Assembly: GCF_937910895.1 (NCBI RefSeq)
Contig: NZ_CALEMI010000109.1
Coordinates: 1-45,580 of the forward strand
Source: an uncultured Dokdonia sp.
GTDB taxonomy: Bacteria; Bacteroidota; Bacteroidia; Flavobacteriales; Flavobacteriaceae
Reading direction: 5' to 3'
DNA: 45,580 bases
Part shown: positions 385-38,945 of the stretch, one piece after another
How positions within the stretch are numbered: position 1 is the stretch's first letter
Layout: each line of letters opens with the position of its first letter
Made by a program: the position numbers and the translations under genes
Notes under the pieces: generated by a model
The model's database searches: none
What the model was told of the DNA's origin: nothing
The model's input: only the letters and a program-made list of their open reading frames with translations

Positions 385-454
385 TAAACTTACTATCGAT
401 TTCTCAATTTTTAATGGGTTAATGAGTAAGTGATGGATTCGAATTAGAATTCGT
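385..454 (-). promoter_or_regulatory. Promoter with LytTR-type direct-repeat box upstream of the LRR gene
   Basis: Two copies of a 13-base element (aatgagtaagtga at 421-433 and aattagaattcgt at 442-454, plus strand) sit exactly 21 bases apart. On the minus strand, TAAGTTTA (392-385) resembles the Bacteroidota -7 element TAnnTTTG. The box starts 29 bases upstream of that element and 53 bases upstream of the ATG. The same geometry appears upstream of the histidine kinase at 3180. Binding by the neighbouring LytTR regulator is inferred. Confidence 0.55.
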
Positions 455-1215
455 TACATTGATTTTAATATTTCCTGTAGACGTTCCCTTTTTCTTTGAG
501 AAATGGGCAAACGACTCTCATCTGTCATTACCACATATCCGCCATCTTTTTTTATATAGGATTTTAGGTAATTCAAATTAATAAGGTGTGACTGATGGAT
601 GCGTTCAAAATTATGTTCTTTGAGCAGTTCTTCATATTCTTTTAAGGTCTTAGAAATAAGGATAGGTTTCGTATTTTTAATATAAAACATCGTGTAATTG
701 TCAGCACTTTCGCATCGTATAATATCACTGATGTCAAACAAATGAATCCCATCAGATGTAGACAGCGCAATGCGTTTAAAATTGTCTACATTCTTCCTGA
801 TATTTTCTAATAATAAATCTATATGAGAGTAATCATTTTTCTTCTCAATAACTGCTTCTATTTTTTCTATCACTTTTTGTAGTTCTTCTGGATCTACAGG
901 TTTCAGTAAAAAATCTAATGCACTAAATCGAAATGCTTTAATAGCATATTGTTCGTGAGCCGTGATAAAAACCACATTGGTTTTAATCACTTTATTACGC
1001 TCAGAAAGCTTTTCTAAAATATCAAAACCTGTCCCATCCGTAAGTTGAATATCTAAAAAAACAACTTGTGGTTCTAGTGTGTCTATGACTTCAATACCCG
1101 TAGCAACACTATCTGCCTCTCCAATAATTTTAATACTTGGTGCAAAACGAGCAAGCAATCCTTTCATGCCTTCCCGAAGATTCTTATCGTCATCTATTAA
1201 AATAGCTTTTATCAT
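454..1215 (-). CDS. LytTR-family response regulator
   Basis: A two-component transcription factor of 253 residues. The receiver domain covers about residues 1-120, with the acidic cluster D8-D10, the phosphoacceptor Asp55 (VFLDIQLTDG) and the conserved Lys in LLKPVD. A LytTR DNA-binding domain covers about residues 150-250 (SADNYTMFY, then RIHQSHLINLNYL). Length and order are typical for the LytT/AlgR/AgrA family, which binds paired direct repeats on one DNA face. The start lies 3 bases after the stop of the upstream sensor kinase, so the two form one operon. Candidate binding boxes precede both this operon and the next gene downstream (LRR protein). Confidence 0.95.
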   Translation of the reverse strand: MIKAILIDDDKNLREGMKGLLARFAPSIKIIGEADSVATGIEVIDTLEPQVVFLDIQLTDGTGFDILEKLSERNKVIKTNVVFITAHEQYAIKAFRFSALDFLLKPVDPEELQKVIEKIEAVIEKKNDYSHIDLLLENIRKNVDNFKRIALSTSDGIHLFDISDIIRCESADNYTMFYIKNTKPILISKTLKEYEELLKEHNFERIHQSHLINLNYLKSYIKKDGGYVVMTDESRLPISQRKRERLQEILKSM

Positions 1216-1218
1216 ATA

Positions 1219-3180
1219 TTATTCATTTACATATCGTAACGGGAGTCTCAATGTTACTTTTGTTCCTGTTACTTTCAACGTATCTGCTAACTCTTCTATA
1301 GCAATCGTTGCTTTTTTAGAAGTAGAGGCTGTAATCATTTCTAGACGTTTTTTAATAATATCTAGCGCCATCGATTTATGAGCCAATACAGAGTTTTCTT
1401 TATTCAATTTTGAGGTATTAATCCCGATTCCGTTATCCAAGATAACACAAATCAAAGACTGATCTTCTAGGGAAAAATCAATCGTAATACTCCCTTGATC
1501 TTTCTTGGGAATGACGCCATGTATAATTGCATTCTCTATAAAAGGTTGTATTAATAATGGAGGTAAAGCCACATCATCATCTATATCTTTACTTTTAGAA
1601 ATCAGAAAATTAAATTTATCATTAAATCGAAGCTGTTCTAACTCTAAATAGTTTTGCAAACTTTCTATTTCCTTATCAATAGGAATCAGCGATTCTTTAG
1701 AATACTCTAAAGTCAAGCGCATCAATTTAGAAAATTTAGAAAGGTATTTTATCGCCGAATCTGTTCCATTTTGAACTATAAAACTAGAAATAGAACCCAA
1801 ACAATTAAATACAAAATGAGGATTCATTTGTAAGTGCAACGCCTTTTGCTCATACTCGGCAAGTTCCTTTTGAAGTGTCAAGGTTTTCTTAAGATGATTC
1901 CTGTTGTAAATCAAAAAGCCTATACCTACCAAAAGCAACGCAATCAAAGCACCAAAAATCAGTTTCATCTTCGAACTTTTTGCTTCTTCTTTTAAAAGCA
2001 ACTCTCGTTTTTTTGCTTCCTCCTTTTGGATCAGCTCTTTCTTTTCAAATTCATAATTCATAGACGCTTCCACCGATTTCCGAATGTCGTTTTCTTTGAG
2101 TAAGTTATCTTTTATTGCTGTGTATGTTTTATAATGATCTAATGCTAAAGCTGGTTTTCCACTTTTAGCGTAAATAGCACTTAGTAGCTTTTCTGAAGTT
2201 GCTTGTTGTTCTAAAACATTAATTTCATTAGCGAGGCGTAAGGAGTTTTCTGCCATATCCAATGCAAGATTCTCTTGCCCTTGATCTAAATAAAATTGCG
2301 CCAAATACAAATACGTATCTGCCAATCCAAACTTATCACTAATACTTTCAAAAGTGACAATCGCTTTTTCCCAGTTTTCGATAGCTAGCTCATTATACTT
2401 TCTAGACTCATAATAAGCACCTATATTATTGTACCATTCTCCTAAAGCTCTTGGATTGGGATTTTTATCAATACTTTTTTTAGCATCAGTATAAAACTTG
2501 AAAGCATTGTCTAAATCATTTTCCTTAAAATAAATATTCGCAATATTGGTTTGTGTAATTCCGATATTTGGATTCTTTAGTTTCTCTTGAAGAATCAAGG
2601 ATTTTTTAAAATACGTTAATGCCTTACTATCTAAAGATTGTGACTTGTAAGCAACTCCTATATTGTTATAAATTTTTGAACTTTGATTTTCATCCTCTAA
2701 TTCTTCATAAATCGTCGCCGATTTCATGTAATACTCAAGTGCCTTTGCATAATTACTTTGCTCAGAAAAAACAATTCCCATACTCCCGTATGTTCGCGCA
2801 ATTCCTTGATCTACTTGTGAGTCTTTAGTCTCGTTGAGTTTCATTCCTTCAAAAATAGCTTTTGCCCACACAAAATGATCTAAGGCTTTTTCATACTCCC
2901 CTAAAATAATGTAGGCAGTTCCTATATTTAGATACGCATTTCCTTCTTCTAGCGTATTGGAATTATTTTGAGCTAACGTGAGTGCTTTTGTGCCAAAGAC
3001 AAGCATTTCATTAGGATCGCTGTACTTAAGCTCATTAGAGATTTTGTTGTATAACCTAACTTTTTCAGCTTCGTTAATAGGCTGCTCTAATTGCCTCTTC
3101 AGACTATCTAACGTACTCGTTTGACTTTGAAGAGGTATGGATAAAAAGAGTAAAATGTATAGAAGTAATTTTGATTTCAT
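1219..3180 (-). CDS. TPR-containing LytS-type sensor histidine kinase
   Basis: A 653-residue sensor. Residues 1-20 form a signal peptide, placing the sensor part outside the inner membrane. Tetratricopeptide repeats fill about residues 35-360 (for example YNNIGVAYKSQSLDSKALTYFKKSL). A charged coiled coil follows, then one transmembrane helix (LIFGALIALLLVGIGFLIY), then a His_kinase domain with LHLQMNPHFVFN, in which His455 is the predicted phosphorylation site. A HATPase domain completes the protein (N box QPFIENAIIHG, G box DNGIG). It is the cognate kinase of the LytTR regulator encoded 3 bases downstream. This TPR-TM-LytS layout is common in Bacteroidota; the signal sensed is unknown. Confidence 0.95.
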   Translation of the reverse strand: MKSKLLLYILLFLSIPLQSQTSTLDSLKRQLEQPINEAEKVRLYNKISNELKYSDPNEMLVFGTKALTLAQNNSNTLEEGNAYLNIGTAYIILGEYEKALDHFVWAKAIFEGMKLNETKDSQVDQGIARTYGSMGIVFSEQSNYAKALEYYMKSATIYEELEDENQSSKIYNNIGVAYKSQSLDSKALTYFKKSLILQEKLKNPNIGITQTNIANIYFKENDLDNAFKFYTDAKKSIDKNPNPRALGEWYNNIGAYYESRKYNELAIENWEKAIVTFESISDKFGLADTYLYLAQFYLDQGQENLALDMAENSLRLANEINVLEQQATSEKLLSAIYAKSGKPALALDHYKTYTAIKDNLLKENDIRKSVEASMNYEFEKKELIQKEEAKKRELLLKEEAKSSKMKLIFGALIALLLVGIGFLIYNRNHLKKTLTLQKELAEYEQKALHLQMNPHFVFNCLGSISSFIVQNGTDSAIKYLSKFSKLMRLTLEYSKESLIPIDKEIESLQNYLELEQLRFNDKFNFLISKSKDIDDDVALPPLLIQPFIENAIIHGVIPKKDQGSITIDFSLEDQSLICVILDNGIGINTSKLNKENSVLAHKSMALDIIKKRLEMITASTSKKATIAIEELADTLKVTGTKVTLRLPLRYVNE

Positions 3181-3198
3181 GTACGATCGCTTACAAAA

Positions 3199-3268
3199 CG
3201 AAAGTACTATTAACTATTCTAATTCTCATGTGTCAATGAGAATTTGATGGATTCGAATGAGAATTTGA
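3199..3268 (-). promoter_or_regulatory. Promoter with LytTR-type direct-repeat box upstream of the kinase/regulator operon
   Basis: The 13-mer AATGAGAATTTGA is present twice without mismatch at 3235-3247 and 3256-3268, a 21-base period (two helical turns). A third inverted half (aattctcat) lies at 3221-3229. On the minus strand TACTTTCG (3206-3199) fits the -7 element TAnnTTTG, and the box starts 29 bases upstream of it. Paired repeats with about 21-base spacing are typical for LytTR regulators such as AgrA, so autoregulation is inferred. Confidence 0.6.
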
Positions 3269-3270
3269 CC

Positions 3271-3284
3271 GCTTTCGCGAAAGC
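3271..3284. repeat. Iterated palindrome GCTTTCGCGAAAGC, copy 1
   Basis: Exact 14-base copy extended by one matching base pair on each side (c...g). It is intergenic, between the divergent kinase operon and the TonB receptor, directly upstream of the LytTR box. Confidence 0.95.
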
Positions 3285-3446
3285 GTACCCAGTAGCCATA
3301 CAATCTACTGTTACATCCAAACCCCTATTAACAAATTAGATAAAAAGATACCAAAAACTAAAAATATGCTTACAACAAACAAGGTTTTTCCTTTTTTAAC
3401 ATCGCTTTCCAAAAATTGATATTAGATTTACTCCAAATCCTTCTTC

Positions 3447-5822
3447 ATGAAAAAAAGTTTACTTTTTATAGTCCTATTCTGTATTGGACTGTGTACTTCA
3501 TTTGCCCAAGAAAAATTTACACTCAGCGGTACCGTATCGGATACTGCTAGTAATGAAACCCTTATAGGTGTCAACATCTTATTTCCAGAAGTATCAAATG
3601 GTGTAGCAACCAATTCGTACGGATTTTACTCTATTACCTTACCTAAAGGCACCTATAAAATCATTGTGAGTTATCTAGGATATACAGAAATCACAGAAAC
3701 GATTGTATTGGATAGAGATGTACGGAAGGACATACAACTTTCACTAGCTACAGAGTCGCTTGATGAAGTAGTTATTGAAGAAAAAGTAGAGCGTATAAAT
3801 ATTAGAAAACCGCAAATGAGTGTCAACTCTCTTACCGCCGAAACCATCAAACGGATTCCTGTGGTACTCGGAGAGGCAGATGTAATCAAGTCTATCCTTT
3901 TACTTCCAGGTGTGACCAGTGCTGGAGAAGCGGCTTCTGGTTTTAATGTTCGTGGAGGCGCCGCCGATCAGAATTTGATTTTGCTAGACGAAGCAATTAT
4001 ATTTAATTCCTCTCATTTATTTGGTCTGTTCTCCGTCTTTAACCCAGATGCCATTAAAGATTTAAAACTATACAAAGGAGGAATTCCTGCTCGTTTTGGA
4101 GGAAGAGCTTCCTCTGTATTAGACATTTATCAAAAAGAAGGGAACAGTAAACAATTTAAAATGAATGGAGGGCTAGGACTCATTTCAAGTAGATTATTGT
4201 TAGAAGGTCCTATCAAAAAAGACGAAGGTGCTTTTCTAGTGGCAGGACGTTCTTCGTATGCTAATATATTCTTGCCGCTGTTTGATATAGATAACAGACT
4301 TTCCTTTTTTGACCTCAACACAAAATTGAATTACAAAATTAACGACAATAACAGCATCTATCTTTCAGGATATTTTGGGAGAGATGATTTTAGCATCAAC
4401 GATAGTTTTTCTAATAATTATGGGAATGCAGTGGGAAATTTTAGATGGACACATCTTTTTTCTGACAAACTTTTCTCTAATCTATCCATCATTTACAGCG
4501 ATTACTTTTATGGATTAGATCTTGATTTTGTTGGCTTTACCTGGGATTCAGGGATTACCAATTTTAATCTCAAATATGATTTAAAACATTACCTCACTGA
4601 AAACATTCAACTCAACTATGGGATTAACAATGTGTACTATGCATTTAACCCTGGTAAGATCAAACCTAACAGTCCAGATTCTGGAATTGTAGAAGATCAG
4701 CTAACCAAACAATTTGCCAATGAGTTTGCTGCCTATATTGATGTAGAACATAAAATTACAGATCAACTGAATATCCAGTATGGCGTACGTTGGAGTAATT
4801 TTATACGCTTAGGGCAAGATGAAGTGAATGTATATGTAGATGATAATCCAGTACTTTTTGATCCTTTTTTATTGGTGTATCAAGGCGCTGAAATTAATAA
4901 TGTAGACACCTCTTTTAGCCGCAGTGATAAGTTGGCTACGTTTAATACACTAGAACCTCGACTTGCCTTTTCGTATGCATTTAACGATGATACGTCCGTT
5001 AAAGCAAGTTATACACACATGGCGCAATACATCCATTTGTTATCCAACACAAGTTCACCTACCCCACTAGATGTTTGGACGCCTAGTGGTCAGTTTGTAG
5101 ATCCGCAAATATCAGATCAATATGCTGTGGGTTTCTTTAAGAACTTGAAAGATGATATGTACACTATAGAAACTGAAGTCTTTTATAAAGACATAGATAA
5201 TCGTATCGATTATATAGATGGCGCAGATTTGATTGCCAATGACGCCATTGAGCAAGTTATTTTAAGTGGGGAGGCCAGAGCCTACGGACTGGAAGTTTTA
5301 TTTCGTAAAAACGAAGGAAAATTTACAGGATGGCTTGCGTATACGCTTTCAAAATCAGAGCAGCGCACACCCGGTAGAAATGAAAACGAAGTCGGTATCA
5401 ATCTAGGGCGATGGTACAATACACCCTATGACAAAACCCACGATATTTCTGTAAATGCCAATTATGAATTAAGTGACAGATGGCGTTTTGGAGCTAACTT
5501 TATTTATCAGACGGGACAACCCACTAACTTCCCCGTAGGACAGTTTGAATTTCAAGGACTCGTCATTCCTACCTATGGATTTAGAAATGAACAACGCCTT
5601 CCTGATTTTCATCGTATTGATGTTTCAGCAACATTGACACCAAAACAAAATAAAGAAAAAAGATGGCGTTCTGAGTGGGTATTTAGTATCTATAATTTAT
5701 ACAGTAGGATGAATGCTGCTTCTATTAATTTTAGACAAAACCAAGAAACACGTATGAATGAAGCCGTACGAACCTCCATATTTGGAATCATACCTTCAGT
5801 AACGTATAATTTTAAATTTTAA
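3447..5822 (+). CDS. TonB-dependent outer-membrane receptor with carboxypeptidase-regulatory-like N domain
   Basis: A 791-residue outer-membrane transporter. The signal peptide (MKKSLLFIVLFCIGLCTSFAQ) is followed by a CarboxypepD_reg-like beta-sandwich at about residues 25-105 (TLSGTVSDTASNETLIGVNI). The plug domain covers about residues 115-225 (GFNVRGGAADQNLILLDEAIIF, then LYKGGIPARFGGRASSVLDI), and a beta-barrel extends to the C-terminal aromatic residue (VTYNFKF). It is shorter than SusC-type receptors. Two DUF4249 lipoprotein genes follow on the same strand, a pairing known from Bacteroidota, so the three probably form one import or surface complex. The substrate cannot be told from sequence. 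Confidence 0.93.
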   Translation: MKKSLLFIVLFCIGLCTSFAQEKFTLSGTVSDTASNETLIGVNILFPEVSNGVATNSYGFYSITLPKGTYKIIVSYLGYTEITETIVLDRDVRKDIQLSLATESLDEVVIEEKVERINIRKPQMSVNSLTAETIKRIPVVLGEADVIKSILLLPGVTSAGEAASGFNVRGGAADQNLILLDEAIIFNSSHLFGLFSVFNPDAIKDLKLYKGGIPARFGGRASSVLDIYQKEGNSKQFKMNGGLGLISSRLLLEGPIKKDEGAFLVAGRSSYANIFLPLFDIDNRLSFFDLNTKLNYKINDNNSIYLSGYFGRDDFSINDSFSNNYGNAVGNFRWTHLFSDKLFSNLSIIYSDYFYGLDLDFVGFTWDSGITNFNLKYDLKHYLTENIQLNYGINNVYYAFNPGKIKPNSPDSGIVEDQLTKQFANEFAAYIDVEHKITDQLNIQYGVRWSNFIRLGQDEVNVYVDDNPVLFDPFLLVYQGAEINNVDTSFSRSDKLATFNTLEPRLAFSYAFNDDTSVKASYTHMAQYIHLLSNTSSPTPLDVWTPSGQFVDPQISDQYAVGFFKNLKDDMYTIETEVFYKDIDNRIDYIDGADLIANDAIEQVILSGEARAYGLEVLFRKNEGKFTGWLAYTLSKSEQRTPGRNENEVGINLGRWYNTPYDKTHDISVNANYELSDRWRFGANFIYQTGQPTNFPVGQFEFQGLVIPTYGFRNEQRLPDFHRIDVSATLTPKQNKEKRWRSEWVFSIYNLYSRMNAASINFRQNQETRMNEAVRTSIFGIIPSVTYNFKF

Positions 5823-5829
5823 ATATTTA

Positions 5830-5849
5830 TACGCTTTCGCGAAAGCGTA
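5830..5849. repeat. Iterated palindrome, full 20-base form, copy 2
   Basis: TACGCTTTCGCGAAAGCGTA is a perfect 20-base palindrome in the 46-base gap between the TonB receptor and the first DUF4249 gene. It is the longest perfect copy in the window and defines the extended form of the element. Confidence 0.95.
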
Positions 5850-5868
5850 CCAGACATTACATAAAATA

Positions 5869-6756
5869 ATGAGACACATCATATACATCCTATTTTTAGC
5901 TACGTTCTTTACCAGCTGTGAAGACGTTGTTGATGTAGACTTACCCGCGCCACAACCTAGACTTGTTGTGGATGCTTTGGTGCGTCTTAACTTGGAAGAA
6001 GAAGCCTCTCCTGTACGTTTTAAAGTAACTACGACAGGCGCCTTTTTTGATGAGATTACTCCTACGCCATTAACAGGAATGCAACTTGTAAATGAAGCCA
6101 TTCCTACCGTAGCAGGGATCGTATTTCTCACACAAGATCCAGATCACCCAAATGAATATGTGCCTGGATCTGATGAGGCAGGACCTAATCCTGACGGAGT
6201 CGTTTCTAATGATTTTTTCTTAGAAGGAAGACTCATTCTTACCTTTACGTTTGAGGAAGAACTCTACCTAGCTGAAACTCGTTTTGCCCCCGCCCCACCT
6301 ATAGATATGGTGGTTCAAGGAGATCAAACGCTTTTTGATGAAAACGACACCGAAGTTATTGTGACCTTTACCGATATTCCAGAACAAGATAATTTTTACG
6401 TGTTTGACTTCGATTTTAACGAATTTCTCACCATAGAAGATCGCTTTTTTCAAGGTCAGCAATTTGATTTTTCCTATTTCTATGATACCGATTTAGAAGC
6501 AGGAGATGTCGCAAATATTAGTATTCTAGGCGCTAGCGAATCCTTTTATAATTATATGGATTTACTTATTGAACAAAGTGATCTTACCGATGGTGGCCCT
6601 TTTCAAGTACCCGTGACTACCGTACGCGGTAATATTTTAAAAGTAGAAGGTGTAGACAATATCAATATTTTTGATAATGTAGGAAGACCCCAAGAATTTG
6701 TCCTTGGGTATTTTGCAGTATCACAAGAATTTAAAACCAGTATTACCATAGAATAG
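5869..6756 (+). CDS. DUF4249 family lipoprotein (first of two)
   Basis: A 295-residue lipoprotein. The signal peptide ends at a lipobox (FFTSC, Cys17), followed directly by the family hallmark EDVVDVDLPAPQPRLVVDAL. The rest is predicted beta-rich, with a conserved C-terminal segment (QSDLTDGGPFQVPVTTVRGN). DUF4249 proteins are encoded next to TonB receptors in Bacteroidota and are thought to sit on the outer membrane as receptor partners; their function is unproven. It begins 46 bases after the receptor stop, so cotranscription is likely. The next gene is a clear paralogue with the same N and C termini. Confidence 0.88.
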   Translation: MRHIIYILFLATFFTSCEDVVDVDLPAPQPRLVVDALVRLNLEEEASPVRFKVTTTGAFFDEITPTPLTGMQLVNEAIPTVAGIVFLTQDPDHPNEYVPGSDEAGPNPDGVVSNDFFLEGRLILTFTFEEELYLAETRFAPAPPIDMVVQGDQTLFDENDTEVIVTFTDIPEQDNFYVFDFDFNEFLTIEDRFFQGQQFDFSYFYDTDLEAGDVANISILGASESFYNYMDLLIEQSDLTDGGPFQVPVTTVRGNILKVEGVDNINIFDNVGRPQEFVLGYFAVSQEFKTSITIE

Positions 6757-6765
6757 CAAAACAAG

Positions 6766-6808
6766 TACGCTTTCGCGAACTTACCGGCAGGCAGGTGCGA
6801 AAAGCGTA
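6766..6808. repeat. Interrupted copy of the iterated palindrome
   Basis: TACGCTTTCGCGAA (6766-6779) and GCGAAAAGCGTA (6797-6808) are the two halves of the 20-base palindrome, split by a 17-base GC-rich insert (cttaccggcaggcaggt, 6780-6796). The bases gcgaa occur on both sides of the insert, like a short target duplication. It lies in the gap between the two DUF4249 genes. Confidence 0.7.
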
Positions 6809-6824
6809 CACAACATAAAACCCA

Positions 6825-7718
6825 ATGAAAAAGTTACTATTAGTATTCCTTATTACCTGTATGTTTACCAGCTGTGAAGACGTTGTTGATGTAGATTTAG
6901 ATTCAGAACCACCTCGATTGGTTGTAGATGCATTGATACGGGTAGATACTTCACAAGAACTTACTGAAGCCACTATCAGAGTAACGCTAACCTCCTCATT
7001 TTTTGGAGAGATTCAACCTGCTGAGATAGAAAGTATGCAAATTCAAAATGAAGAAAATGGCAGTTTTGTCCCCTACGAGCCTGTACCTGGAGAACCTGGA
7101 TTATACCGTCCGTTTCCTACAACGGTATCACCTGTAGTAGACAATAAAATTATTACCAGTTTTCTTACCAACCCAAATCCAGTGTATATTTTTAGTGTCG
7201 TTTTTCAAGATGAGCTATATCTCGCAAGAACCTCTTTTGTACCTACCTCACCAATAGATAGTATTACTCAAGGAGAAGACACGCTCTTTGATGAAAATGA
7301 TACCGAAGTGATTATCTCATTTACAGATACTCAAGATAGAGAAGATTTTTATGTGTTTGATTTTGATTTTGGAGAATTCCTTACTGTAGAAGATACGTTC
7401 TTTCCAGGACAAGATTTTGAGTTCTCCTATTTTTATGATGGAGAAGATGTTCCACTAGAAACAGGTCAAGAAATAACCATCAGCATTCTAGGAGCCGATG
7501 AACCTTTTTATGATTATATGGAGCAACTCGTTACACAAAGCGACCTTACAGATGGAGGTCCTTTTCAAGTACCCGTATCTACCGTAAGAGGAAATATTCT
7601 CAATGCAGAAGGCATAGACAACATAGACGTATTTGACAATGTTGGTAGACCTGATAGTTTTGCATTAGGCTATTTTGCCATTGTACAAGAATTTAAAAAC
7701 ACGCTTATTATTGAGTGA
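6825..7718 (+). CDS. DUF4249 family lipoprotein (second of two)
   Basis: A 297-residue paralogue of the preceding gene. The lipobox is FTSC (Cys17), followed by EDVVDVDLDSEPPRLVVDAL. The C-terminal 60 residues are almost the same as in the first copy (QSDLTDGGPFQVPVSTVRGN), while the central part around residues 60-130 has diverged. This points to an old tandem duplication followed by divergence of the central, possibly ligand-facing, region. The 68-base gap before it carries the interrupted palindrome. It is most likely the last gene of the TonB/DUF4249 unit, because a new promoter follows. Confidence 0.88.
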   Translation: MKKLLLVFLITCMFTSCEDVVDVDLDSEPPRLVVDALIRVDTSQELTEATIRVTLTSSFFGEIQPAEIESMQIQNEENGSFVPYEPVPGEPGLYRPFPTTVSPVVDNKIITSFLTNPNPVYIFSVVFQDELYLARTSFVPTSPIDSITQGEDTLFDENDTEVIISFTDTQDREDFYVFDFDFGEFLTVEDTFFPGQDFEFSYFYDGEDVPLETGQEITISILGADEPFYDYMEQLVTQSDLTDGGPFQVPVSTVRGNILNAEGIDNIDVFDNVGRPDSFALGYFAIVQEFKNTLIIE

Positions 7719-8749: not shown

Positions 8750-10103
8750 ACTCTTTACCAATTTTGACCCAGTCTCTTCAAAAGCCTTCAAACAAAAAAT
8801 ACAGTTTGACCTGAAAGGCGCTTCTTATAATGACACGCTCATCTCTCATACCAACGAAGGGATAGACATCAAACCTTTTTATCACAGCGATGAGACAGAG
8901 GAATTTCCAGATGTTCCCGGTATACCCTCCCATTGGTCAATAGGAGAAGATATTTTTATTATAGAAGCCAGTGCAGCTGCACATACCGCAAATACGTGTA
9001 TAGCATCTGGTACAGAAACCCTTTACTTTATTGCCGATGCTCCTTTTGATGTACCGCAGTTATTTAAGCTGTTAGATAACACAAAGATTCCGATTCATTT
9101 TAAATTACAATTTCTTGATGAGGCCTTCTATACGCAAATCATTGAGGAAGCAGGAGATCATACTGTTTATCTAAACGTAGATCTAATCCATCATTTAGCA
9201 GAAGACGGGAATTGGTATCACAACCTAAAAGAAGATCATCGTATTCTCGATAGCATTTTAAAACATAAAAAAAATACCCTTTCGGTAGCTATTGATTTGT
9301 ATCAAAATGCAGGTGCTACAATGGTACAACAACTTGCTTATGGGCTCGCACATGCCAATGAGTACTTATTGCATACAGAGACTTTGGGAGTTGCTTTACC
9401 TTCTATTACCTTCCAAGTTCCCGTTGGTTCTCATTACTTTTTTGAAATTGCAAAACTACGAGCGCTCAGACAATTAGTGGCTGTTTTGGTGAATGAGTAC
9501 GCTTTCGCGAAAGCAATTAAAACCCACATCGTTGCCAGACCTACCCGTCGTAATAAAACCATCTACGATTACAATACAAATATGCTTCGCACTACTACCG
9601 AAGCAATGAGCGCCATAATAGGCGGTGCAGATACCATCATTAATATGCCGTATGATGAAATTTATCACAAGAGAAATGATTTCGGACAACGTATTGCTCG
9701 TAATCAACTGATTATCTTAAAAGAAGAAAGTTATTTTGATGCCGTAAGCAATCCCGCTGATGGTACCTATTATATCGAAACCATCACAAAACAATTAGCA
9801 GAGAAAGCATTGGCTCTTTTTAAAGACATCGAAAAACAAGGAGGTTTTTTGAAACAGCTTAAAGATGGAACCATCCAACGTAAAATAAAAGAAAGTGCTC
9901 AAAAAGAACAAGCGCAATTTGATACCCAAGAAAAAATCCTTTTAGGAACCAATAAACATCCTAACCCCAACGATCGGATGAAGGATACCTTAGAACTGTA
10001 TCCTTTTGTAAAAACAAACCCCAGAAAAACACTCATAGTACCGATTATAAAACGTCGTCTATCTGAAGCTATGGAGCAAGAACGTCTTACAACCGAAGTA
10101 TAA
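8736..10103 (+). CDS. mutA: Methylmalonyl-CoA mutase, small (beta) subunit
   Basis: A 455-residue subunit with the mutase TIM-barrel fold (YDYNTNMLRTTTEAMSAIIGGADTI, then YYIETITKQLAEKAL) and no C-terminal cobalamin-binding domain, as expected for the small subunit. With MutB it interconverts succinyl-CoA and (R)-methylmalonyl-CoA, linking propionate metabolism to the TCA cycle. It starts inside the end of the preceding gene (14-base overlap). The large subunit is not immediately next; a small lipoprotein gene intervenes. The iterated palindrome is embedded in frame at 9501-9514 and encodes the AFAKA part of NEYAFAKAIK, where I recall relatives having unrelated residues. Confidence 0.93.
   Translation: MTKNKLFTNFDPVSSKAFKQKIQFDLKGASYNDTLISHTNEGIDIKPFYHSDETEEFPDVPGIPSHWSIGEDIFIIEASAAAHTANTCIASGTETLYFIADAPFDVPQLFKLLDNTKIPIHFKLQFLDEAFYTQIIEEAGDHTVYLNVDLIHHLAEDGNWYHNLKEDHRILDSILKHKKNTLSVAIDLYQNAGATMVQQLAYGLAHANEYLLHTETLGVALPSITFQVPVGSHYFFEIAKLRALRQLVAVLVNEYAFAKAIKTHIVARPTRRNKTIYDYNTNMLRTTTEAMSAIIGGADTIINMPYDEIYHKRNDFGQRIARNQLIILKEESYFDAVSNPADGTYYIETITKQLAEKALALFKDIEKQGGFLKQLKDGTIQRKIKESAQKEQAQFDTQEKILLGTNKHPNPNDRMKDTLELYPFVKTNPRKTLIVPIIKRRLSEAMEQERLTTEV
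9501..9514. repeat. Iterated palindrome, copy 3 (inside mutA)
   Basis: Exact GCTTTCGCGAAAGC within the mutA reading frame, read as Ala-Phe-Ala-Lys-Ala. It is preceded by the extended bases gta. Confidence 0.95.
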
Positions 10104-10704: not shown

Positions 10705-12839
10705 TGATTAGAAGAAAGTTTGACCATATCACCCTAGACTCGTTACCAACCACATCTACCATAGATGAGGTTAGCGAAGTAACGCCTACAGCAGAAACGA
10801 TTGATCTTAAAAAATCATATTCAAAAGCAGATCTTAATAACCTAGAGCATTTAGATTTTGTTGCTGGCATCGCTCCAAATTTAAGAGGTCCGTATAGCAC
10901 CATGTATGTCCGCAGACCCTGGACGATAAGACAATACGCAGGATTCTCTACTGCCGAAGAAAGCAATGCTTTTTACCGCCGTAACCTTGCTGCAGGACAG
11001 AAAGGACTTTCGGTCGCTTTTGACCTTGCTACACACAGAGGGTATGATAGTGACCACGAGCGCGTAGAAGGAGATGTCGGAAAAGCAGGTGTTGCGATAG
11101 ATTCTGTAGAGGACATGAAACTACTCTTTGATCAAATCCCATTAGATCAAATGTCGGTATCCATGACCATGAATGGCGCGGTACTTCCTATTATGGCTTT
11201 TTATATTGTCGCTGCCGAAGAACAAGGCGTTTCTCCAAACAAACTTTCGGGAACGATTCAAAATGACATTTTGAAGGAATTTATGGTGCGTAACACCTAT
11301 ATTTACCCACCGACCCCTTCCATGCGAATCATCTCTGATATTTTTGAATATACATCCAAAGAGATGCCTAAGTTCAACTCCATTTCTATTTCTGGATACC
11401 ACATGCAAGAAGCTGGCGCTACCTGTGATATTGAATTGGCATACACACTAGCAGATGGTCTTGAGTATATCCGAACTGGATTGAAAGCAGGAATGGACAT
11501 CGATACCTTTGCGCCCCGCTTATCTTTTTTCTGGGCGATAGGAATGAATCATTTTATGGAAGTAGCAAAAATGCGTGCCGCACGGATGCTTTGGGCAAAA
11601 CTAGTGGCACAATTCAACCCTAAAAACCCTAAATCACTCGCGCTCAGAACCCATTGTCAAACCAGCGGATGGAGTCTTACAGAACAAGATCCTTTTAATA
11701 ATGTTGCCCGTACGTGTATAGAAGCATCGGCAGCAGCTTTTGGAGGTACGCAAAGTTTACATACCAATGCCTTAGATGAAGCCATTGCGTTGCCTACAGA
11801 TTTTTCAGCACGCATTGCACGTAATACACAAATATACCTACAATCAGAAACCGAAATCACCCGCACTGTAGATCCTTGGGCAGGAAGTTATTATGTAGAA
11901 TCGCTTACCGATAAAATTGCACATAAAGCGTGGGAGTTAATACAAGAAGTAGAAGAACTAGGTGGCATGACTAAAGCCATAGAAGCAGGTATTCCAAAAT
12001 TACGGATTGAAGAAGCGGCTGCACGTAAGCAAGCGCGTATTGATAGCGGACAAGATATTATTGTAGGTGTCAATAAGTATCGCCCCACCGAAGAAGAATT
12101 TTTGAGTATCCGAGAAGTAGACAATACAACAGTGCGTGATGGTCAATTGGCAAGACTTAAAAGTACCAAAGAACACCGAGATGCTTCAAAAGTAACGCAG
12201 GCACTTATCCAATTGACAGATGCGGCAAGATCAGGTAAAGATAATTTACTAGCCTTAGCAGTGATTGCTGCTCGTGAACGAGCAACTCTCGGTGAAATCT
12301 CTGATGCCTTAGAAGAGGTATACGGCAGACATAAAGCAACCATAAAATCATTTAGTGGCGTGTATAGTAAAGAAATTAAAAAAGATCCCGCTTTCGCGAA
12401 AGCAAAACAACTTGCCGACCAATTTGCCGAACTTGATGGCAGACGCCCTCGGATTATGATTGCGAAAATGGGACAGGACGGACATGACCGTGGCGCCAAA
12501 GTAGTCGCGACTGGATATGCAGATATCGGGTTTGATGTTGATATAGGCCCATTGTTTCAAACACCCAAAGAAGCAGCAAAACAAGCCATGGAAAATGATG
12601 TGCATATTTTAGGGGTCTCTTCGCTGGCTGCTGGACATAAAACATTAGTTCCTAAAGTAATTGAAGAACTTACCAAATTAGGTCGCCCAGATATTATGGT
12701 CATTGTGGGTGGTGTGATCCCACAGCAAGATTATCAATTTTTATTTGATGCAGGAGCCGTTGCTGTTTTTGGACCTGGTACCAAAATAAGTGAAGCTGCC
12801 ATTGGATTATTGGAAATTATGATTGACCAAGTATCCTAA
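10704..12839 (+). CDS. mutB: Methylmalonyl-CoA mutase, large (alpha) subunit
   Basis: The 711-residue catalytic subunit. The N-terminal barrel carries [20 protein letters not shown], the substrate-binding region of the family. The C-terminal cobalamin domain carries [13 protein letters not shown] with His594 as the lower axial ligand (DxHxxG motif), then [12 protein letters not shown] and VGGVIP. It forms a heterodimer with MutA and needs adenosylcobalamin. The start overlaps the preceding stop by one base. In the linker before the cobalamin domain, the iterated palindrome encodes AFAKA (DPAFAKAKQ, 12390-12403). Confidence 0.96.
12390..12403. repeat. Iterated palindrome, copy 4 (inside mutB)
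   Basis: Exact GCTTTCGCGAAAGC in the interdomain linker of mutB, again in the frame giving Ala-Phe-Ala-Lys-Ala. Confidence 0.95.
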
Positions 12840-17994: not shown

Positions 17995-19128
17995 ATGAAA
18001 AAGTTCACCATTTGTATTATTCTTTTTTTTGCTTTCGCGAAAGCGGTATTAGCACAAGAAACAGCAGCACCATATACATTTATAGATCTTATTGATCTTG
18101 AAGCCAACCCTGTGATAAGTCAAGGAAGAACAGGAACCTGTTGGAGTTTTTCTACCTCCTCTTTTTTGGAAAGTGAAATCAAACGCATTACGGGTACTAA
18201 AGTAGACCTCTCAGAGATGTACACCGTACGTACTACCTACCCTCTCAAAGCAGAAAATTATATAATGCGCCAAGGGAAAGCGCAGTTTAGCGAAGGTGGG
18301 CTAGCGCATGATGTGATACGCAGTGTCAGCAGTTTTGGGCTTGTTCCTGAAGATGCCTATACGGGTCTTGCTCCTACCGAAAATAAGCACGATCATGCAG
18401 AAATGGTGGCAGTGCTGGAAGCTATGCTCAATACATACATAGATAATCCTGGAAGGAAATTAAGTAAAAAGTGGAAACCCGCTGTTAATGCTGTTCTTGA
18501 CACCTACTTAGGAACTCCACTAAGTACTTTTTCTTATGATAATAAGGAGTATACGCCCATGAGTTTTGCAAATGCGATGCGTATAGAACCTAAAAATTAT
18601 GTCTCCTTGACATCTTTTACGCATATCCCTTTTTATGAGTCATTCATATTAAATATTCCTGATAACTTTTCTAATGGATCTTTTTATAATGTTCCTCTTG
18701 ATGAATTTATGCAAAGCATTGATCATGCTTTAGAAAATGGTTTTACCGTTACATTAGATTGTGATGTAAGCGAATTATCCTTTTCTTCAAAACAAGGCGT
18801 TGCTGTTATTCCTGCGCAAAGCGAAAATGTAAAACTTTCGGTATTAGGACCTGAAGAAGAAAAAGTAATTACTCAGCAATACCGTCAAGACGAATTTGAA
18901 AATTATAATACGACAGATGATCACTTAATGCATATTACAGGAAAAGCAAAAGATCAAAACGGTACGATCTATTATAAAGTGAAAAATTCTTGGGGTACAG
19001 ATGTAAATCGTACGGCGTATGATGGATATGTATATATGAGTGCTTCCTATATACGCCTAAAGGCAATTTCTGTATTGATGCACAAAGATGGAATCCCAAC
19101 TCCAATCTCTAAAAAAATAAAGTTATAA
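17995..19128 (+). CDS. Secreted C1 family (papain-fold) aminopeptidase-like protein
   Basis: A 377-residue cysteine peptidase of the bleomycin hydrolase/PepC type. The catalytic triad is visible: Cys49 in QGRTGTCWSFS, His313 in DDHLMHITG and Asn331 in KVKNSWG. Classical PepC enzymes are cytosolic, but this protein has a signal peptide ending in AVLAQ, so it is probably exported. Part of the hydrophobic core of that signal peptide (AFAKA) is encoded by the iterated palindrome at 18031-18044. It is divergent from menB with a 47-base shared upstream region. Confidence 0.9.
   Translation: MKKFTICIILFFAFAKAVLAQETAAPYTFIDLIDLEANPVISQGRTGTCWSFSTSSFLESEIKRITGTKVDLSEMYTVRTTYPLKAENYIMRQGKAQFSEGGLAHDVIRSVSSFGLVPEDAYTGLAPTENKHDHAEMVAVLEAMLNTYIDNPGRKLSKKWKPAVNAVLDTYLGTPLSTFSYDNKEYTPMSFANAMRIEPKNYVSLTSFTHIPFYESFILNIPDNFSNGSFYNVPLDEFMQSIDHALENGFTVTLDCDVSELSFSSKQGVAVIPAQSENVKLSVLGPEEEKVITQQYRQDEFENYNTTDDHLMHITGKAKDQNGTIYYKVKNSWGTDVNRTAYDGYVYMSASYIRLKAISVLMHKDGIPTPISKKIKL
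18031..18044. repeat. Iterated palindrome, copy 5 (in a signal peptide)
   Basis: Exact GCTTTCGCGAAAGC, encoding Ala-Phe-Ala-Lys-Ala within the signal sequence of the C1 peptidase. Confidence 0.95.
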
Positions 19129-23315: not shown

Positions 23316-24437
23316 TTAAAACAACACCTTCCCCATGGTTTGTAATTTATATTGAGTTTCTTCCCACTCTGCTTCTGGGATACTCGCTGCTGTGATCCCG
23401 CCTCCTACATATACTTGAGTTCCTGTAGATGTACTTTCCATGCAGCGCAAATTCACAAAAAGATGTGTATTTTTCTTTACACTTCGATATGCGAGGTTCT
23501 CTACATTACGTCGTGTCTTAGATCGGTTGGTTTCACTTTTTAGATTTAACTCACCTAAAAAGCCTGTGTAATAAGAGCGATCATAGTTTTCATATTCTAT
23601 AATAAATGTTTTAGCCTCCTCTACTGGAAGACCACACACGGCTGGGGTAGGATGTAATGCGGTAATAACATCTTGCAAACTAACGTTACTTTCATCTAGA
23701 CTTGCTGAAATAACTGTTTTTAAATGCAGTAAATTCCCTGCAAGATGATTCTCTGTTTTGCCAACAACTAAATCTTTTGTCAGTGGTTTTAATCGAGAGG
23801 CGATTGTATCTGTTACGAGCTGTTGCTCTTCTTTCTCTTTAGAACCCCAAGATACCGCTGCATCGGGTGCATATTTTAAAGTACCTGCAAGAGACATGGT
23901 GTATACGGTTCTGTTTTTTACTTCTAACAATGTTTCTGGAGTTGCTCCTAGCCACAATCCAATTTTAGGATGATAAAATACATACACAAAAGCCGTGGGA
24001 TAAGTCTGCAAGAGCTTTTTAAAGACGGCTATAGGATTTGATAGGGAATTTTGAAAAGTACGCTTTCGCGAAAGCACAACCTTCTTTAACACCCCTTCCT
24101 GTATCTTCGCTATTGCCTTTTGTACTAGCTCAATATGTGCATTTCTCTGAAACACCTCTTCTTCGGGAAGTACGATATCTGAAGCATTTTGGGAAATACT
24201 AGCAGTACCATATTCACATTGAATATGATGTGTGTCTGGGATCAGACTCGCTTTTTGAGCATTGTCAAAGGGTGCAAAAGCAAATCCGCTCTCCGTAAAA
24301 TCCTTGATATGATGTACCGTATCTTCCTCTTGATAAAAACTATGAAGGTATTTACTTTCAGGTTTTCTATACGCCACAAAAGGAAGCGCATCATCAAATT
24401 GTTGTGTGATTAACTTAAAAAAAGAAGCTTCTGTCAT
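23316..24437 (-). CDS. menF: Isochorismate synthase (chorismate-binding enzyme)
   Basis: A 373-residue enzyme converting chorismate to isochorismate, the entry step of menaquinone synthesis. Family motifs are KVVLSRKR, LWLGATPETLLEV, SLAGT, LHPTPAVCGLP and YENYDRSYYTGFLGE, ending GGGITAASIPEAEWEET. The start overlaps the stop of the thioesterase gene by one base (TAATG). The iterated palindrome at 24062-24075 lies inside the conserved KVVLSRKR motif, in a different frame from the AFAKA copies. Confidence 0.94.
   Translation of the reverse strand: MTEASFFKLITQQFDDALPFVAYRKPESKYLHSFYQEEDTVHHIKDFTESGFAFAPFDNAQKASLIPDTHHIQCEYGTASISQNASDIVLPEEEVFQRNAHIELVQKAIAKIQEGVLKKVVLSRKRTFQNSLSNPIAVFKKLLQTYPTAFVYVFYHPKIGLWLGATPETLLEVKNRTVYTMSLAGTLKYAPDAAVSWGSKEKEEQQLVTDTIASRLKPLTKDLVVGKTENHLAGNLLHLKTVISASLDESNVSLQDVITALHPTPAVCGLPVEEAKTFIIEYENYDRSYYTGFLGELNLKSETNRSKTRRNVENLAYRSVKKNTHLFVNLRCMESTSTGTQVYVGGGITAASIPEAEWEETQYKLQTMGKVLF
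24062..24075. repeat. Iterated palindrome, copy 6 (inside menF)
   Basis: Exact GCTTTCGCGAAAGC (extended gtac on the left). On the minus strand it is read as part of V-L-S-R-K-R, a conserved menF motif. Confidence 0.95.
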
Positions 24438-31121: not shown

Positions 31122-31135
31122 GCTTTCGCGAAAGC
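31122..31135. repeat. Iterated palindrome, copy 7
   Basis: Exact GCTTTCGCGAAAGC between dnaK and umuC, preceded on the plus strand by a run of ten T. It may help terminate umuC transcripts on the minus strand, where an A run follows instead, so terminator function is doubtful. Confidence 0.95.
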
Positions 31136-33820: not shown

Positions 33821-33834
33821 GCTTTCGCGAAAGC
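33821..33834. repeat. Iterated palindrome, copy 8
   Basis: Exact GCTTTCGCGAAAGC at the right end of the pyrimidine-rich island in the gap after the CPBP gene. Confidence 0.95.
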
Positions 33835-38931: not shown

Positions 38932-38945
38932 GCTTTCGCGAAAGC
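38932..38945. repeat. Iterated palindrome, copy 9
   Basis: Exact GCTTTCGCGAAAGC, intergenic, again at the right end of a pyrimidine-rich island as with copy 8. Confidence 0.95.

Follow-up and report, generated by a model that had tools for sequence, protein, structure and literature searches.

A predicted LytTR-type operator before a sensor kinase/response regulator operon and an adjacent secreted leucine-rich repeat gene in Dokdonia

The locus and its paired boxes

The window analysed here is a stretch of 45,580 nucleotides from an uncultured Dokdonia sp. (Flavobacteriaceae; NCBI RefSeq assembly GCF_937910895.1), namely contig NZ_CALEMI010000109.1 (C109) read from position 1, and belongs to a genome of 4.8 Mb. 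Its left end carries a two-component system and two copies of a 34-bp paired repeat (referred to below as the box), which is the predicted operator of that system. The three genes concerned are all oriented leftwards (minus strand). The sensor kinase (1219-3180) contains TPR repeats, a LytS-type His_kinase domain (PF06580; 83 bits, above the cut-off) and a HATPase_c match (24.9 bits, slightly below the cut-off of 26.4); a signal peptide and one hydrophobic segment (residues ~407-425) were recognised by eye. The response regulator (454-1215, 253 aa) is composed of a REC domain (Response_reg, 75.9 bits) and a LytTR domain (67.3 bits), both above the Pfam cut-offs. The third gene (3-368), encoding a secreted leucine-rich repeat (LRR) protein, is truncated by the contig start, so that only its first 122 aa remain.

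The box of the kinase/regulator operon (3235-3268, minus strand) is formed by the 13-mer AATGAGAATTTGA, which occurs at 3235-3247 and at 3256-3268 with a period of 21 bp and zero mismatches; on the coding strand the half-site accordingly reads TCAAATTCTCATT, twice (3256-3268, then 3235-3247). This pair, claimed in an earlier reading of the sequence (the original prediction), was thus recovered as two exact copies. The diverged copy of the 34-bp unit that had been claimed before the LRR gene is likewise present (421-454, minus strand; ACGAATTCTAATT-n8-TCACTTACTCATT), with three mismatches per half, and the spacer CGAATCCA is common to both window boxes. The first base of this second box is the last base of the regulator stop codon. 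Each box is followed, after a gap of 28 bases, by a -7 element of the TAnnTT type: TACTTTCG (3199-3206, minus strand) in the kinase promoter and TAAGTTTA (385-392, minus strand) in the LRR promoter. The gap from box to ATG amounts to 54 or 52 bases in the two promoters. The earlier values of 29 to the -7 element and 53-55 to the ATG are correct as distances, the present ones being counts of intervening bases. An inverted third half-site (3218-3229) was considered as part of a dyad and dropped, because it is absent in L014 and differently spaced at the LRR promoter.

Conservation, promoter geometry and gene order

Homologous loci were collected in one scan, from which the 79 loci encoding kinase homologues that were best of at least 565 were kept (80 with the window); the nearest named homologues among them were Dokdonia records. 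The kinase start together with its upstream DNA was present in 76 loci, L065, L082 and L088 being dropped because the kinase start lay outside the locus. When these upstream regions were searched with the half-site pair of the window at 21-bp spacing, a score of at least 19/26 was reached in 48 of the 76, and the best score in 385 base-shuffled upstreams was 18. A model-free test, in which any 11-mer repeated at 9/11 identity was counted, was run on 72 regions (77 less L013-L015, L081 and the window). A direct repeat at period 21 was found in 57 of them, as compared with 1-7 of 72 at 21 other periods (12 to 33) and 6 of 72 for shuffled sequence at period 21. These two counts are taken as the proof of conservation. 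The position weight matrix (PWM) count of 73/77 (window included) is circular and was therefore set aside as proof; the distances to the -7 element given below were measured on those sites. Its four misses were inspected by eye: L079 carries a pair of the AA type (see below), L038 has its half-sites at period 20 instead of 21, L040 shows a weak pair, and none was seen there in L081. Over 53 sites, the information per column was 0.06 bits in the flank, 1.14 and 1.02 bits in the two half-sites, 0.49 bits in the spacer and 0.16 bits between box and -7 element; the flank has diverged while the half-sites keep 1.0-1.1 bits per column. The original prediction had named loss of the box in relatives that keep the operon as the outcome that would speak against it; most of the 76 homologues examined proved to retain the box upstream of the kinase. 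Both the box and its diverged copy are confirmed as real.

The promoters show a narrow geometry. A TAnnTTYG element lies 27-29 bp past the box in 67 of the 73 kinase-promoter sites (window included), and a TAnnTTT element 25-29 bp past the box in 36 of 37 second-box promoters; the base after the -7 element is G in 67/68 kinase promoters and A in 28/36 second promoters. A -33 TTG is not conserved in the kinase promoters (8/67 at most, at any spacing from 15 to 26). According to an excerpt of the transcription-start map of Flavobacterium psychrophilum (PMC9723704), a TAnnTTYG-type element occupies -12 to -5; with the -7 element so placed, the box comes to lie at about -74 to -40, a position that fits LytTR practice.

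Gene order was determined for 77 of the 80 loci (window included), after removal of L015 and L088, in which a regulator was not found, and of L081, whose kinase runs open to the contig end. Open reading frames (ORFs) were called from ATG on the same strand if they reached 110 aa or ran off the contig; assignment to the LRR family was by BLASTP against five members. An ORF follows the regulator in 74 of the 77 loci and belongs to the LRR family in 73 of these, the exception being L049. The LRR gene is the constant partner of the module. A second box was found in 37/77 loci, L049 among them, and in 33 of the 37 it lies no more than 4 bases from the end of the regulator stop codon. The median distance to the start of the next gene differed with the presence of a second box, being 90 bp in the 37 loci that have one and 34 bp in the 37 that lack it (p=5e-10). 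In the latter, no box over the cut-off was present within the 260 bp scanned, and the short distance is consistent with one operon. Exceptions are L021 with a weak box (14.4 bits), L087 with a box further down, and L082 with a 301-bp gap and no box. In three relatives with a complete gene (L014, L018, L057), DUF7619 and the C-terminal T9SS type A sorting domain characteristic of cargo of the type IX secretion system (T9SS) were found in 3/3 and an LRR match in 2/3; the window copy is truncated, and signal peptides were judged by eye.

Distribution of the box and the protein proposed to read it

Within the window, single 13-mers with up to 3 mismatches are at chance level (36 seen, mean of 42 in shuffles), so that the LRR box is indistinguishable from chance by word count alone; the kinase-side pair is clear from the window alone, the LRR-side copy is not. 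The question is decided by other results. A BLAST search of the home genome with 3200-3446 reported 40 matches (scored for 40 of 982 candidates). Besides the query itself there was 391-451 (75% identity over 61 bp, E 8.3e-5); the other 38 all overlap an unrelated iterated palindrome adjoining the box. A 30-nt core pattern, derived from the two window boxes and homologues, was found with up to 3 mismatches allowed at the two window boxes and nowhere else in the 4.8 Mb (reversed control: 0). With a profile of 94 boxes, both window boxes being among its training set, these two scored E 2.4e-7 and 1.1e-5 and the next best site in the genome 0.135. Strong boxes in the home genome are limited to these two, at the two claimed promoters. 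The genome contains 21 LytTR matches. The 20 other LytTR loci were scanned for period-21 repeats on the coding strand (up to ~5 kb before each gene, in some cases shortened by contig ends), and no such box above background was detected: 2 loci had a candidate at 9/11, where 2 x 41.6 kb of control sequence gave 20 overlapping ones. A box shared by all LytTR loci was rejected on this basis.

The palindrome adjoining the box, GCTTTCGCGAAAGC (14 bp), is an observation in its own right. It occurs in 878 copies in the 4.8-Mb genome (reversed control: 0), nine of them in the window (3271-3284, 5833-5846, 9501-9514, 12390-12403, 18031-18044, 24062-24075, 31122-31135, 33821-33834 and 38932-38945), and in 369-905 copies in each of 18 Dokdonia genomes; it is missing (0 copies) from 21/21 genomes of other genera. 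We take it to resemble the highly iterated palindromes of cyanobacteria. Nothing on it was found among the literature matches listed (the best 8 of 553).

Among the 18 Dokdonia genomes, the kinase is present in 4, all of which have the box; at E below 1e-4 the box was detected in 5/18, i.e. in the four kinase genomes and in one of the 14 without kinase (G015). For the model used (R1), training had included both window boxes as well as L013, L014 and L015, apparently genomes G013, G002 and G011, so that only the boxes of G015 and of the LRR gene of G011 are Dokdonia matches outside its training set. Of 299 family genomes sampled evenly, 7 have the kinase (E<=1e-90), 18 the box (E<=5e-4) and 6 both (Fisher p=1.3e-7, the home genome being included in sample and test); the seventh kinase genome has an AA-type box. 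One genome of this sample, G106, has the coordinates of the genome of L019. In 16 box-bearing relatives, picked for carrying the box and all of them training genomes, matches at E<=0.001 numbered two in 10, three in 5 and five in 1. Extra boxes on contigs other than that of the module precede LRR proteins (L140, L242) or another long secreted protein (L126); further boxes stand before a long secreted protein adjoining the module (L125) and, in the module neighbourhood, before an LRR gene (L143) and a non-LRR secreted protein (L124). The L130 box precedes a short or broken frame, and the weaker boxes L240, L241 and L243 are followed by unrelated ORFs or by none. The kinds of protein behind the extra boxes were judged by eye.

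The LytTR domain of the regulator (residues 145-253) was modelled with AlphaFold at a mean predicted local distance difference test (pLDDT) score of 89.5, and all 13 PDB chains retrieved at E<=0.001 in a fold search were LytTR proteins (3d6w, ComE, and AgrA both free and DNA-bound). The FhRhHRS-like motif of LytTR domains, as given in an excerpt of PMC4227749, is represented by FERIHQS (residues 203-209), in which 5 of 7 positions fit; across 15 aligned domains, F, E, R, H, Q and S of this stretch do not vary. Among NCBIfam models, BtsR matches the regulator best, at 122.5 of 246 bits and under the cut-off. LytTR Regulatory Systems consist of a LytTR protein without REC beside a membrane inhibitor; the present regulator has a REC domain and its partner is a histidine kinase, which places it outside that class. 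The interpretation offered in the original prediction is supported by the REC and LytTR domains, by the match of the DNA-binding model to AgrA and by the position of the box.

Two types of half-site were distinguished, 55 nC and 17 AA with 0 mixed, both halves being of the same type in 72/72. Regulator residues 171, 172 and 241, all in the LytTR domain, separate the nC from the AA rows without overlap, and residue 170 does so with one exception; in the model, residue 172 occupies a strand turn and 241 the beginning of the last helix. These LytTR residues agree with the assignment of LytTR specificity to loops in an excerpt of PMC4847170. A mapping onto AgrA residues was not obtained, as the sequence search matched 3d6w only and the fold search yields no residue map. 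In three Flavobacteriales genomes, nC and AA copies of the module occur side by side (L028/L052, L031/L071, L035/L073), each with its own box type. From the linkage of box and operon, we infer that the box is read by the encoded regulator.

Proposed regulation, alternatives and known systems

We propose, with a probability of about 0.88, that the 34-bp repeat is the operator through which the regulator activates its own operon and the gene of the type IX-secreted LRR protein. The kinase would sense its signal outside the inner membrane via the TPR domain and would phosphorylate the regulator. Two regulator molecules, one per half-site, would then bind on the same helix face, two turns apart, at about -74 to -40, and would recruit RNA polymerase to promoters with a good -7 element but without a conserved -33 TTG. 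Activation of the own kinase-regulator operon would constitute a positive feedback loop and could produce a switch or a pulse, and the adjacent gene of the surface protein (LRR, DUF7619) would be activated together with it. The regulon of the home genome apparently comprises these two promoters, to which further secreted-protein genes have been added in some relatives. More speculatively, and in our estimate doubtful, the module might be a closed flavobacterial sensing circuit with a single output, in which the LRR protein, as the fixed partner, may in addition act as ligand-presenting input to the periplasmic TPR sensor; the cell would thereby monitor the export or occupancy of its own surface LRR protein; the box, carried to unlinked surface-protein genes, would enlarge this circuit.

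Several observations weigh against the proposed regulation. The compared loci are kin, so that the counts above are not independent trials, and they represent the best 80 of at least 565. One Dokdonia genome (L098, G015:C5, 231472-231505) has the box without the kinase: promoter and box still adjoin the receptor gene, and a search of the genome for the kinase at E<=1e-60 gave no match. The 1.5 kb past the box, the only region in which regulator and LRR gene were sought, shows no frame for kinase, regulator or LRR protein. This box is likely a relict of a kinase promoter. Among the 299 genomes, 12 have a match to the box model without the kinase. The 22 non-home loci that were read comprise 5 kinase promoters, 3 LRR promoters, 1 shorter kinase (its regulator 65% identical over 157 residues) and 13 that precede other genes or no called ORF; given the 12 genomes and these 13 loci, other regulators probably use similar boxes. 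Across the family the box thus also occurs outside the module; in the home genome it is confined to the module at that threshold. As to the covariation of half-site and regulator, 2 of the 5 non-overlapping columns (26 and 115) lie outside the LytTR domain, and the 17 AA rows group within a single regulator-tree clade of 19, whose other two rows have an unlabelled box, owing to which the tree program counts three type changes. Because the AA type is confined to one clade, we take the covariation to reflect one event and do not regard it as proof.

Look-alike boxes were also noted in genomes without the kinase (L202-L205, L207, L208 and L213). They have ACGAATTCTA-type half-sites, with the second half ending in AA, and are located ~27 bp before TAnnTT-like elements, several of them before secreted-protein genes; they probably belong to another LytTR regulon.

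A further point on the contrary side is that autoregulation of either sign would keep the box, and the regulator might accordingly act as a repressor or buffer in a homeostatic system with negative autoregulation. This is considered unlikely, because the box is situated entirely upstream of the core promoter, the -33 TTG is not conserved (maximum 8/67, as above), and AgrA, in an excerpt of PMC4227749, is an activator from about -60. That another LytTR regulator of the cell reads the box, for which the 21 LytTR matches of the home genome and the similar boxes in genomes without the kinase might speak, is judged rather improbable in view of the phyletic and positional linkage of the box with the operon, of the half-site type, which tracks the clade of the encoded regulator, and of the three genomes in which nC and AA systems each keep their own box type.

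The box also lies in an intergenic region shared with divergent genes on the plus strand (3447-7718), 178 bp from the ATG of a TonB-dependent receptor (CarboxypepD_reg-like, Plug), which is followed by a DUF4249 gene and then by a second similar gene without Pfam match. If the box served the receptor/DUF4249 genes, its proximity to the kinase would be accidental, and its persistence beside the receptor in G015 would be accounted for. The receptor is present in 17/18 Dokdonia genomes and the box (E below 1e-4) in 5/18, however, so that the receptor does not explain the box; non-Dokdonia homologous loci have the box before the kinase as well, and it is on the kinase side that the distance to the -7 element is near-fixed. 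The receptor was rejected as the target, this explanation being very improbable. An origin by chance, or by recent duplication of a single promoter, which the chance frequency of single 13-mers in the window and the spacer CGAATCCA in both boxes might suggest, has a negligible probability and is refuted by conservation: other genera retain the two boxes with spacers that differ from each other, and the period test gave 57/72.

The module yields a candidate operator with its promoter geometry, and a minimal regulon testable by two reporters. With the box sequence, surface LRR proteins under the same control could be sought in other genomes, and the pairing of nC and AA variants could serve the study of LytTR specificity. 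In the open literature searched, no paper on a kinase/LytTR/LRR module was among the matches listed, and LytTR, T9SS and leucine-rich repeat co-occur in none of its papers. To our knowledge, no operator has been defined for any flavobacterial LytTR regulator.

Two-component control connected with T9SS is known in Bacteroidota from PorXY/SigP of Porphyromonas. PorX is not known to be a LytTR regulator, and the secretion machine is controlled there, whereas in the window module it would be a cargo. The targets of YpdB and BtsR of Escherichia coli are transporter genes, whereas the window module would combine autoregulation with a surface protein. These systems are likewise LytS/LytTR pairs with 9-11 nt repeats and 11-13 nt between them (PMC4847170, excerpt). 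In the window module, the promoters are of the Bacteroidota type (TAnnTTTG), the TPRs of the kinase are predicted outside the inner membrane, no pheromone gene was seen beside the genes, and the output is a type IX-secreted LRR protein, in all of which it differs from the agr system of Staphylococcus aureus. The half-site sequence of AgrA differs from that of the window as well. What the two share is a LytTR response regulator with the LytTR fold and paired direct repeats upstream of promoters. AgrA binds such paired repeats near -60 upstream of agr P2 and P3, the promoter-proximal pair being centred near -60 (PMC4227749, excerpt). LytTR regulators in general bind two repeats of 9-11 nt, 11-13 nt apart (PMC4847170, excerpt), an arrangement to which the period of 21 in 57/72 upstream regions corresponds. 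By the family criteria open to analysis, the module behaves as a member of the family, and it probably works in the manner of the known LytTR systems.

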